20,211 bases of DNA. Origin: a virus. Positions 7,713-15,692 of the stretch are shown here, piece by piece. Location of the stretch: IMG/VR virus record IMGVR_UViG_3300042292_000214, positions 1 to 20,211 of that record. One strand, written 5' to 3'. Every line of letters starts with the position of its first letter. Position 1 is the first letter of the stretch. The notes below the pieces were generated by a model. It was not told the origin of the DNA. It was given only the letters and a program-made list of their open reading frames with translations, and searched no databases. The translations under genes and the position numbers were made by a program.

Positions 7713-7951
7713 ATGCCCTCATCAAAGAACGAGGCAAAATGTATGGCGAGGCTGTCGATAACTTCACGGCCGTGGGCAGAGGCTGGGGCGCAATCCTTAA
7801 CATCGAGGACATCCCGCCGTATCAAGTAGCGTTGATGATGGACTTTCTAAAGACCATCCGTTGCGCGATCAACCCAACACACGAGGACTCCTGGCAGGAC
7901 AAAGCGGGCTATTCGGAACTCGGGAAACGGATCGCTCTCGATGAGTCTTAA
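7691..7951 (+). CDS. DUF6378-like phage protein
   Basis: An 86-residue protein that matches the phage family annotated DUF6378. Visible pattern: IKERGKMYGEAVDNFTAVGRGW, then PPYQVALMMDFLKTIRCAINPTH, then EDSWQDKAGYSELG. Members are common in phages near nucleotide- or DNA-metabolism genes, and their function is unknown. The family name is from memory of the motif, not a search. A second in-frame ATG two codons downstream is an alternative start. The gene overlaps the previous gene by 22 nt and the next by 11 nt, which indicates one transcript. Confidence 0.75.
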   Translation: MQMSERIDALIKERGKMYGEAVDNFTAVGRGWGAILNIEDIPPYQVALMMDFLKTIRCAINPTHEDSWQDKAGYSELGKRIALDES

Positions 7952-8975
7952 AGATCAATTTGATGAGATGCCTGAGGGCGTTGAGTCCAAGGATGTAAAA
8001 GAATTACGGCAAGCCATGCTGCGTTTGCAGAAACAACTGAAACAATCAAAAGAACGAAATGAGGACCTGGTCTTTGCTACACGCCAGGCGGCCTACGATG
8101 CAATGCTCACCTTTGGCAAAATACCACCAGTTCCAACTGTGGCTATTGATAAACGCAAAGCAAAAGGTGAAGTTGCGCTTTGGCACATGACGGATTGGCA
8201 AGGAGCCAAACGAACCGTCAGTTATAACTCTCAGATTATGCGCAGACGCGTGATGGAATTTGCAGAGAAGGCCGTCAGGATCACCGACATTCAACGCGCT
8301 GATCACCCTGTAAAAGAAGTAACCATTGCCTTTGGCGGCGACATGGTCGAAGGCTTGTTCAACTTCCCAAGCCAGGCTTTTGAGATTGATAGCACCCTAT
8401 TTGAGCAATATGTAAATGTTTCTCGCCTTTGCGTGGATGTGGTCAGGTTTGCCCTGGCTAATTATGAAAAGGTCACCGTGGTTCCCGAGTGGGGAAACCA
8501 TGGTCGGATCGGATCAAAGCGCGACAATGTTCCGCGATCCGATAACTTCGACCGTATGTGCTACGAGTTGGCCCATCAGTTGCTTCAGGGAGAAAAACGC
8601 CTGGTGTGGCAGGACTGTCCCGAGGATATTCAACGCATCGAGATTGGCAACTACCGAGCGCTGTTGATCCACGGAGATGAAGTGGGCCGCAACGGTTTTG
8701 CTTCCCCTGGTGCAATAGTTCAACACGCAAACAAGTGGCGCTCGGGTTCCTACCCTTGGGAGTTCAGAGATGTTTATATTGGCCACTATCACACGCACGC
8801 GGAGTGGTCGATGGCTAACGGACTCGGAGCGGTGTATCAAACAGGCTCAACGGAGTCCGACAATCGTTATGCAGGTGTGATGCTTGCGGCCAGCGCAACT
8901 CCATCGCAACGCCTTCACTTCATTGATCCAGTAAAAGGCCGCGTGACTGCCGCCTACAAGGTTTGGTTAGATTGA
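7941..8975 (+). CDS. calcineurin-like metallophosphoesterase
   Basis: A 344-residue protein with the full metallophosphatase motif series: H82-M-T-D85, GGD134MVEG, G185-N-H-G, H244-G-D-E and G281-HYHTH. These residues bind two metal ions in calcineurin-like enzymes (Mre11/SbcD, phage serine/threonine phosphatases). Residues ~17-50 are a charged helix (ELRQAMLRLQKQLKQSKERN) likely to form a coiled coil. Phage proteins of this size and layout are usually assumed to act on nucleic acids as exonucleases or phosphodiesterases, though the substrate here is unproven. Its start overlaps the previous gene by 11 nt. Its end overlaps a convergent minus-strand small gene by 9 nt. Confidence 0.8.
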   Translation: MSLKDQFDEMPEGVESKDVKELRQAMLRLQKQLKQSKERNEDLVFATRQAAYDAMLTFGKIPPVPTVAIDKRKAKGEVALWHMTDWQGAKRTVSYNSQIMRRRVMEFAEKAVRITDIQRADHPVKEVTIAFGGDMVEGLFNFPSQAFEIDSTLFEQYVNVSRLCVDVVRFALANYEKVTVVPEWGNHGRIGSKRDNVPRSDNFDRMCYELAHQLLQGEKRLVWQDCPEDIQRIEIGNYRALLIHGDEVGRNGFASPGAIVQHANKWRSGSYPWEFRDVYIGHYHTHAEWSMANGLGAVYQTGSTESDNRYAGVMLAASATPSQRLHFIDPVKGRVTAAYKVWLD

Positions 8976-9050
8976 GGCCTCTGCTGCATCCACAGCATCA
9001 TCAACAGAGTAGGAATGTTCCTTAGAACATTGTCCACATTCTTTGCACAT
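8967..9050 (-). CDS. 27-residue CxxCxxC microprotein, second gene of the minus-strand pair
   Basis: On the minus strand, an ATG at 9050-9048 overlaps the stop of the upstream minus gene as TGATG. This is the coupling used throughout the window and is the main support for the gene being real. It encodes 27 residues starting MCKECGQCSKEHS and ending DDAVDAAEASI, with TAA at 8969-8967. Cys2, Cys5 and Cys8 in C-x2-C-x2-C spacing plus His12 could bind a metal such as zinc; the C-terminal half is acidic. The gene contains a perfect 18-nt inverted repeat (9013-9030) and a DnaA-box-like 9-mer (9030-9038). It may be a small regulator; no homologue is recognised. Confidence 0.45.
   Translation of the reverse strand: MCKECGQCSKEHSYSVDDAVDAAEASI
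9013..9030. repeat. perfect inverted repeat between convergent genes
   Basis: AATGTTCCTTAGAACATT consists of two 7-nt arms (AATGTTC / GAACATT) around CTTA. It lies just past the convergent stop codons, inside the tiny minus-strand gene. No T-run follows on either strand, so it is not a standard terminator. It could be an operator, a weak bidirectional transcription stop, or chance. Confidence 0.5.
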
Positions 9051-9259
9051 CAATCATCCTCATAATCATCACCATAATCGCTGGTGATCAATCTCATGTC
9101 TGCGATGTCGATGCCATTATCTTTTGCTTTATCCATTGCTTCTTTGAAGGTGGAAAGGCAACGGCTAGTTAGATCGGTAACCATGTCGGGATATTGGGCC
9201 TCGGTTCCCAATTCAACGGCAAGGCCGCCTAGACGGATGGATATTTGTGAATAAGCCAT
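9050..9259 (-). CDS. 69-residue hypothetical protein, one of only two minus-strand genes
   Basis: The minus-strand reading frame is open from 9337, but the real start is taken as the ATG at 9259-9257. AAGGGGG lies 7 nt upstream of it, while the segment before (translated GRGGYITGVITGIISARG) looks non-coding. The 69-residue product starts MAYSQISIRLGGLAVELG, continues with YPDMVTDLTSRCLSTFKEAM and ends with a very acidic tail (SDYGDDYEDD). No family is recognised. A divergent, oppositely oriented gene at the head of the recombination operon is a usual place for a phage regulator or anti-regulator, but no DNA-binding motif is visible. It is coupled to the 27-residue gene downstream. Confidence 0.65.
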   Translation of the reverse strand: MAYSQISIRLGGLAVELGTEAQYPDMVTDLTSRCLSTFKEAMDKAKDNGIDIADMRLITSDYGDDYEDD

Positions 9260-9355
9260 GGTGGACCCCCTTGCTGAAATTATGCCTGTAATCACGCCTG
9301 TAATGTATCCGCCACGCCCGATCCAGGGTCCTTCCAATTGTCGGTGGCGTGTGCC
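9260..9355. promoter_or_regulatory. divergent intergenic control region with short direct repeats
   Basis: This 96-bp gap separates the minus-strand gene pair from the plus-strand recombination operon, so it should hold promoters for both. It contains two exact copies of GCCTGTAAT (9284-9292 and 9296-9304) with a 12-bp period, as might bind a regulator on one face of the helix. On the minus strand CATAAT (9284-9279) is a possible -10. No convincing -35/-10 pair is visible on the plus strand. The A-rich block found before the other two leader elements is absent here. Confidence 0.5.
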
Positions 9356-9400
9356 AAGGTATGCCTTACAAGGGCGAAAGCCCCCTACAGAAAGGAAGGC
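9356..9400 (+). promoter_or_regulatory. repeated start-associated leader element, copy 1
   Basis: This is the first of three copies of a ~45-nt element. It runs from AAGGTATG (9356-9363) through the hairpin GGGC-GAAA-GCCC (9372-9383, GNRA tetraloop, followed by CC) to GAAAGGAAGGC (9390-9400), which ends 2 nt before ATG 9403. CCTT at 9364-9367 could pair with AAGG in the 3' end and so mask the ribosome-binding site. The ATG inside AAGGTATG is in frame with the gene and would add 14 residues. See copies at 14246 and 15649. Confidence 0.7.
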
Positions 9401-9402
9401 TC

Positions 9403-9963
9403 ATGGCCGAGAAATACAGCCTTGAGGATTACGAAACGGTCGAAGCGCGTCTCCGCCGTCTATACGAAAAATACCCAACAGCCCGATTGCTTACAGAACT
9501 GATCTACCAGGATGAGCGCCGCTTCATCTGTAAGACATTCTTGTATCTTGATCCGAAAGACAACACCCCGCACTCAACAGGCTATGCCGAGGAGATTGTG
9601 GGCGCTGGGTTTGTAAATAAAACATCGGCCCTTGAGAACTGCGAAACTTCCGCGATTGGCCGTTGCATAAGCAACTCCGTTCTTTGCCTTGGCGCACCAG
9701 TTGGCAAGCGCCCATCTCAAGAAGAGATGCAAAAGGTCGAACGCTACAAAGCAGAACCACGCAAAGCACCAGTAAAGAAACTCTCCTGGACTGACGATCA
9801 ATTGAAACTCGCCGAAGCAGCCATTCAGACGGTTGCTGCGATGAGTGACAAAGAGAAGTTGCGCGAGTTGTGGACTGGAAGCGCCGAGATTATTGACGCG
9901 CCAGTAAAAGGAACCACTCTGAAGGATGTAATCAATGCACGCGTTGCGGAGTTGAGCGCTTAA
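9403..9963 (+). CDS. putative single-strand annealing recombination protein
   Basis: A 186-residue protein. The key region is ENCETSAIGRCISNSVLCLG (residues ~78-97) followed by KRPSQEEMQ. The motif E-N-(A/C)-E-T-S-A-I-G-R is characteristic of a large phage family placed near recombination genes and thought to relate to ERF/Rad52-type annealing proteins. The N-terminal ~75 residues have an LLTELIYQDERRFICKTFLY strand pattern. The C-terminal ~60 residues are a separate helical part after a basic linker. The Cas4-like nuclease at 11758, RusA and SSB nearby fit a phage recombination system. ATG 9403 is chosen because the leader element ends just upstream; starts at 9349 and 9361 are in frame. The function is family inference, not proven. 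Confidence 0.6.
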   Translation: MAEKYSLEDYETVEARLRRLYEKYPTARLLTELIYQDERRFICKTFLYLDPKDNTPHSTGYAEEIVGAGFVNKTSALENCETSAIGRCISNSVLCLGAPVGKRPSQEEMQKVERYKAEPRKAPVKKLSWTDDQLKLAEAAIQTVAAMSDKEKLRELWTGSAEIIDAPVKGTTLKDVINARVAELSA

Positions 9964-14245: not shown

Positions 14246-14289
14246 AAGGTATGTCTCAACAGGGCGAAAGCCCCCAAGAGAAAGAAGGC
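14246..14289 (+). promoter_or_regulatory. repeated start-associated leader element, copy 2
   Basis: AAGGTATG (14246-14253), hairpin GGGC-GAAA-GCCC (14262-14273) followed by CC, then GAGAAAGAAGGC ending at 14289, six bases before GTG 14296. TCTC (14254-14257) can pair with GAGA (14278-14281), extending the hairpin and covering part of the ribosome-binding site. The ATG inside the element is in frame with the gene and would add 15 residues (MSQQGESPQEKEGKK). Confidence 0.7.
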
Positions 14290-14295
14290 AAGAAA

Positions 14296-15648: not shown

Positions 15649-15692
15649 AAGGTATGTCTCACCAGGGCGAAAGCCCCCAAACGAAAGAAGGC
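15649..15692 (+). promoter_or_regulatory. repeated start-associated leader element, copy 3
   Basis: AAGGTATG (15649-15656), hairpin GGGC-GAAA-GCCC (15665-15676) followed by CC, then GAAAGAAGGC ending at 15692, five bases before ATG 15698. The ATG within the element opens a separate 15-codon frame (MSHQGESPQTKEGAK) whose TGA overlaps the gene's ATG as ATGA, so here it would be a short upstream frame rather than an N-terminal extension. Confidence 0.7.

Follow-up and report, generated by a model that had tools for sequence, protein, structure and literature searches.

The window analysed here, a stretch of viral DNA 20,211 nucleotides in length, contains on its minus strand a 69-codon gene followed by an open frame of only 27 codons with closely spaced cysteines. 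This raises the question of whether so short a frame is a gene in its own right and, if so, what its product may do for the phage that carries it. The elements of the locus are the following, in coordinates of the window.

8967-9050, minus strand: the 27-codon microgene, MCKECGQCSKEHSYSVDDAVDAAEASI plus stop, from translation of the window
9052-9048, minus strand: TGATG, the 1-nt stop/start overlap between the 69-codon gene and the microgene, read from the sequence
9058-9061, minus strand: GAGG, Shine-Dalgarno-like, 7 nt ahead of the ATG of the microgene
9015-9047, minus strand: codons C2, C5, C8 and H12 of a putative 3Cys-1His metal site
8988-9002, minus strand: DDAVD codons, start of a conserved and presumably helical acidic amphipathic segment, from the alignment and a low-confidence model of a relative
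8967-8975: 9-nt convergent overlap of the microgene and the phosphoesterase gene, from the coordinates
7941-8975, plus strand: convergent metallophosphoesterase/exonuclease-like gene (phrog_284, 8.1e-40)
9050-9259, minus strand: 69-codon partner gene (69 residues plus stop)
9403-9963, plus strand: first gene of the divergent operon (phrog_11717, function unknown)

Coordinates and translations agree with an earlier note, made from the letters of this DNA, which had described the 27-codon frame as TGATG-coupled to the 69-codon gene and as running 9 nt into the phosphoesterase gene, and the ORF map of the window is likewise consistent with just two minus-strand genes. The putative metal site directly follows the initiator methionine, and the GAGG sits within the codons for the acidic tail of the 69-residue protein. 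In shuffled versions of the window a start codon followed by CxxCxxCxxxH is expected 0.01 times, against the single occurrence observed.

Viral contigs were searched with the 69-residue protein, and in 34 of the 80 loci obtained a CxxCxxCxxxH ORF was found at the identical 1-nt overlap, so that the coupled pair for which the note had suggested looking does recur in related phages. The pN/pS of the microgene, calculated from 23 distinct DNAs with the indel locus L026 excluded from the clade analysis, was 0.15 between near pairs and 0.35 when all pairs were taken, and within codons 2-24 the third positions were variable in 23 of 23 columns, the first in 13 and the second in 12. The 27-codon frame is a real gene, and the proposal of a hidden coding frame is borne out both by its recurrence at the overlap and by the near-pair pN/pS.

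In the other 46 loci the 69-residue gene is present but no CxxCxxCxxxH frame accompanies it at that place, and a search of these 46 records in their entirety found the motif in none. At the 28 junctions that were read, the frame has for the most part been deleted cleanly with a loss of about 78 nt, which leaves the two convergent stops overlapping or nearly so. Three loci (L052, L053, L057) retain apparent decayed remnants from which the Cys region is gone, and three others (L023, L025, L031) have unrelated short frames at the place of the microgene. The earlier note would have given up its two-gene operon if relatives kept the 69-residue gene and broke the 27-codon frame, and this is literally what 46 of the 80 relatives display; nevertheless, since the absence is mostly a clean deletion and the microgene persists elsewhere behind members of at least 28 partner families, what falls is the fixed partnership, and the microgene stands as an optional, independent gene. 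In the manner of moron-like accessory genes, it is inserted, by a clean presence or absence of about 78 nt, between genes that are adjacent in relatives.

A degenerate pattern, MCxxCxxCxxxHxxxxD[DN]xVD, gave at least 119 matching stretches in viral contigs, and three further pattern scans of viral contigs extended the family to at least 153 distinct proteins, at least 177 distinct genes and at least 261 loci, some of the last coming from one contig that is counted twice (their distinct 250-nt surroundings number 188). Among the matches listed, the consensus is MCK-x-CG-x-CSKEH-x-RTIDDAVD-xx-LDSPI, and all 153 distinct proteins have 27-56 residues, 121 of them 27-30. Genes with indels were left out of the core analysis, for which 157 distinct core DNAs were taken from among the 177 genes. 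A completed scan for EHxxTIDDxVD, in which no cysteine was required, returned 109 stretches and, over all loci, 61 distinct ORFs; in 60 of these CxxCxxC lies directly before, so the motif is no artefact of requiring cysteines, and in all 60 an ATG or GTG immediately precedes the first Cys. When the motif was sought without a start codon, 108 of 108 distinct ORFs among the matches listed were still preceded by ATG, GTG or TTG, and hence in these two sets it is always an N-terminus and never an inner domain. Of 141 distinct MCxxCGxCxxEH proteins among the matches listed, D[DN]xVD comes at precisely the spacing of the pattern in 85, and the other 56 mostly have DD[AS][IM]D or one extra residue, while a few (e.g. 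L272, L294) are unrelated. One could still suppose a leader-type ORF, whose translation matters and not its product, or a chance frame, given that the frame is very short and that its start overlaps a stop. However, the amino acids are conserved across unrelated contexts and the Cys cluster is present in 60 of the 61 ORFs, and the coding signature refutes this explanation, to which we leave scarcely any probability.

The exact spaced family pattern had no occurrence in contigs of 84,980 bacterial and archaeal species, nor did the exact spaced pattern when the start codon was dropped and a Gly was required behind the second Cys. A tblastn of the consensus against 50,697 phage records gave no match at E up to 10, and the pattern occurs in none of eight named phages. 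Our literature search found no description of the family, which appears to be previously unnamed at its length of about 28 residues; an anonymous cluster may exist in the catalogue of small phage genes that Fremin et al. have reportedly compiled.

For 173 of the 177 genes (four lacking 250 nt upstream were dropped) the upstream sequence was inspected. Among the matches listed, the microgene start overlaps an upstream stop in 114, by exactly 1 nt in 96, and lies 0-10 nt past it in 27 and 11-120 nt past it in 31, with no such ORF in one case. The 141 close upstream partners belong to at least 28 families, of which, among the matches listed, the 69-residue family is the commonest (58). Next come a 66-residue GRKKI/V protein with 28 cases, a membrane protein resembling DUF2061 with 9 and a protein of 76 residues adjoining a tail gene with 7; the phosphoesterase itself is among the remaining, smaller families. 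Shine-Dalgarno-like 4-mers precede 57 of 154 family starts, compared with 490 of 5000 control ATGs. The microgene has, moreover, been gained or lost repeatedly: on a phosphoesterase tree of 150 rows (one of 151 left out, its match being under 300 aa, and L197 standing on a doubtful long branch) its presence needs 10 gains or losses, at least five of them forced by well supported branches, and over four placements 17 changes are needed. Each carrier record has a single family copy, as counted in one set of 41 records and in another of 37 that overlaps it. In two records the pattern matches once more, and the extra match that was read is antisense within another gene.

A functional unit with the 69-residue protein, such as a toxin-antitoxin or co-regulator pair, as the first description of this operon implied, would fit the rank of that family as commonest partner (58 of 141 among the matches listed). 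Nonetheless, with at least 28 partner families, 46 of 80 relatives that keep the 69-residue gene alone, and a microgene in L126 that lies on the opposite strand behind the phosphoesterase, the change of partners largely refutes such a unit; we consider it very unlikely, and a fixed pair is rejected.

Several large carriers (among L107, L119, L136, L151, L152 and L160) have genes for a KatG-type peroxidase, AhpC and an AhpD-like protein near the microgene, downstream of it, and a Cys/Met PLP enzyme and 2OG-Fe(II) oxygenases are also encoded near or downstream. Further small proteins starting MCxxCGC are encoded upstream of the microgene in L120, L131 (49 aa) and L189 (69 aa). Placements adjoining tail genes, KatG and AhpC could point to another role of the microgene.

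The 69-residue protein itself belongs to a diverse beta-beta-alpha family with an invariant YPD and an acidic, low-confidence tail. A fold search of its model found no match at E < 0.001 in PDB or BFVD, tblastn against 50,697 phage records found none at E up to 1, and its Pfam matches were rejected as noise. Ahead of this gene lies the region shared with the divergent operon, with the following elements.

9266-9272, minus strand: AAGGGGG, Shine-Dalgarno-like site of the 69-codon gene, read from the sequence
9279-9284, minus strand: CATAAT, -10-like, lying 25 nt ahead of the ATG of the minus-strand pair
9284-9292 and 9296-9304: two direct repeats, GCCTGTAAT, limited to near relatives of the window
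9372-9383, plus strand: GGGCGAAAGCCC, leader hairpin before the divergent operon, from sequence comparison

The repeat reported in the shared control region is indeed present twice, but the regulatory switch that had been read into it finds no support. Of 60 distinct upstream regions, 14 contain ATTACAGGC twice in exact form, and these 14 come from near relatives of the window (three of 81 upstreams, being short, were left out); an operator-like role was rejected on this ground. The conserved part is CATA[AC]T, a -10-like element of the kind expected in an ordinary promoter, which is found in 52 of the 60 and stands mostly 23-26 nt before the ATG. A GGGC-loop-GCCC hairpin before the divergent operon, with a GAAA, GGAA or TAGTTA-like loop, is likewise found in 52 of 60. 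Judging from such comparisons, the control region has the anatomy of a promoter and a leader, although a scan of 8900-9460 for consensus promoters (sigma-70 consensus only) and terminators found none. The leader element, AAGGTATGYCTYA..GGGCGAAAGCCCCC with a purine-rich ribosome site behind it, is repeated on the plus strand before three genes (9356-9399, 14246-14290 and 15649-15692); its exact 12-nt hairpin occurs three times in the window, and the element has no match in Rfam. In addition, the GGAAGG ribosome site of the divergent operon is a potential pairing partner of GGGTCCTTCC (9323-9335 with 9394-9406), but such anti-Shine-Dalgarno pairing was rejected, as no covariation was seen in L023.

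The phages that carry the microgene are diverse. Eight terminases of carriers were compared and form four groups that show no mutual similarity beyond E 0.002; by this comparison, the microgene is present in at least four unrelated terminase lineages. The nearest named relatives of two of these terminases are in the Streptomyces phages BRock (54.5%) and Francob (64.1%); for that of L319, which is close to the window's own group, they are the Microcystis phage Mae-JY09 (49.7%) and then Arthrobacter phages (44.5%). A search for a T4-type capsid in 20 carriers gave no match, and the control likewise gave none. Passages of two papers use WhiB as an actinophage marker (PMC6802176, PMC10202952). A WhiB gene is present in 35 of 37 long carriers, the records of the other two lacking it, as opposed to one of 39 arbitrary long contigs, and the window itself has one as a separate gene; the microgene pattern is found in all 37 carriers, which were chosen for it, and in none of the 39 contigs. 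As a sign of the host WhiB is an indirect marker, and the two carriers that lack it, together with the L319 terminase, tell against the assignment to actinobacterial hosts. Since WhiB is also present in 16 of 17 relatives that lack the microgene, and the eight named phages lack the pattern, the microgene is an optional cargo of actinophages and not a mark of all of them. The hosts are likely to be freshwater actinobacteria.

In the microgene product C2, C5, C8 and H12 are invariant, a His being found at position 12 in every aligned member, and CxxCGxCxxxH is followed by a conserved I/V-DD-A-V-D and a hydrophobic C-terminus. A helix over residues 17-27 is predicted, with low confidence, in a model of a relative (pLDDT 68, pTM 0.25). 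This arrangement reads best as one metal site joined to an acidic amphipathic helix; the members of the family would probably bind metal, with zinc as the default assignment. The ferredoxin-like CxxCGxC makes an iron-sulphur site possible as well, and the product might be a minimal peptide that holds or carries a [4Fe-4S] cluster for redox sensing or for action on WhiB-type proteins. CxxCGxC is half of a ferredoxin motif, the fourth Cys being replaced by His, and the best matches, though weak, include ferredoxins: Fer4_21 at E 0.0039 and Fer4 at E 0.14, each in one of 40 members, and the structures 1clf and 9g03 at E 6-9 only. The KatG, AhpC, AhpD-like and Fe(II)-oxygenase genes near the microgene of large carriers would also suit it. 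On the other hand, at least 38 of the 40 members match no ferredoxin model, no CP stands behind the motif, CxxCG is also the usual turn of zinc knuckles, and the window and its small relatives are without a KatG/AhpC-type neighbourhood; we regard the cluster as rather unlikely. In the same 40 members no Whib Pfam domain and no PADLOC match was found, and the best E-values were 0.074 in PHROGs and 0.068 in NCBIfam.

A HypB-like metal carrier or scavenger that supplies phage metalloenzymes would agree with the N-terminal position of the motif (108 of 108 distinct ORFs among the matches listed) and with the other small MCxxCGC-starting proteins encoded upstream in large phages. Yet it leaves the conserved acidic helix unexplained and the partners vary, and we hold such a function to be distinctly unlikely.

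We therefore return to a metal site with an acidic helix, and hypothesize that the microgene is an optional actinophage cargo gene whose one-site metal microprotein acts on a host protein, a reading that is in our judgement probable, though far from secure. The gene would settle behind any available phage gene, its start overlapping or abutting that gene's stop; in this way, we propose, the upstream gene's ribosomes also translate the microgene, which in the window the GAGG in the upstream gene's tail would assist. Methionine aminopeptidase is expected to remove an initiator Met that stands before Cys, and here it would probably do so. C2, C5, C8 and H12 may then bind one metal, most likely zinc, and residues 16-28 would form the acidic amphipathic helix. 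The folded peptide would most likely dock on a host protein specific to actinobacteria, with the transcription machinery or a WhiB-type regulator as first candidates, and so adjust the cell to infection. Being useful but dispensable, as we propose, the microgene could be gained, lost and moved. Because the partner gene changes while the host group stays constant, the target likely lies in the host, and recurrence of the microgene among phages that are unrelated but have the same hosts suggests that this target is shared. A more specific version, which we think improbable, is a shared effector: a [4Fe-4S] or zinc peptide of 27-29 residues with an N-terminal Cys ligand, which is carried by unrelated phages of one host group, spreads stop-to-start and acts on one conserved host target, e.g. 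a WhiB-sigma or RNA polymerase surface. If true, this would be an effector hidden below gene-calling length. In fact, a gene of 84-90 nt does not exceed the minimum that gene finders usually require, which may be why a family found in many contigs from phages of one host group apparently went unnamed. The placement also suggests a simple route by which a promoterless gene may move, its start codon being dropped onto the stop of another gene, and the peptide is small enough for synthesis, so that its metal and its target can be directly tested.

Among known systems, the [4Fe-4S] ferredoxins of Fer4 (PF00037) and Fer4_21 (PF14697) share with the microgene product the CxxCGxC spacing and the Gly after the second Cys. 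In contrast to the CxxCxxCxxxCP of Fer4, however, the microgene product has His for the fourth Cys, no CP and no second motif, and it mostly has 27-30 residues with the motif always N-terminal. HypB, with its N-terminal metal motif MCxxCGC, also begins MCxxCG, but there a GTPase domain follows, whereas all 153 microgene proteins among the matches listed end within 27-56 residues, and the spacing of the third Cys and the His differ as well. The ZAS (zinc anti-sigma) domain likewise joins a Cys/His metal site to a helix, as the microgene product putatively does, yet its HxxxCxxC reverses the CxxCxxCxxxH ligand order and the microgene protein is far smaller. Finally, passages of PMC11323111 describe small phage proteins of fewer than 100 residues that, like the microgene product, probably act on the host; the family is absent from those passages, and what sets it apart is that it wanders among at least 28 partner genes by way of a stop/start overlap.
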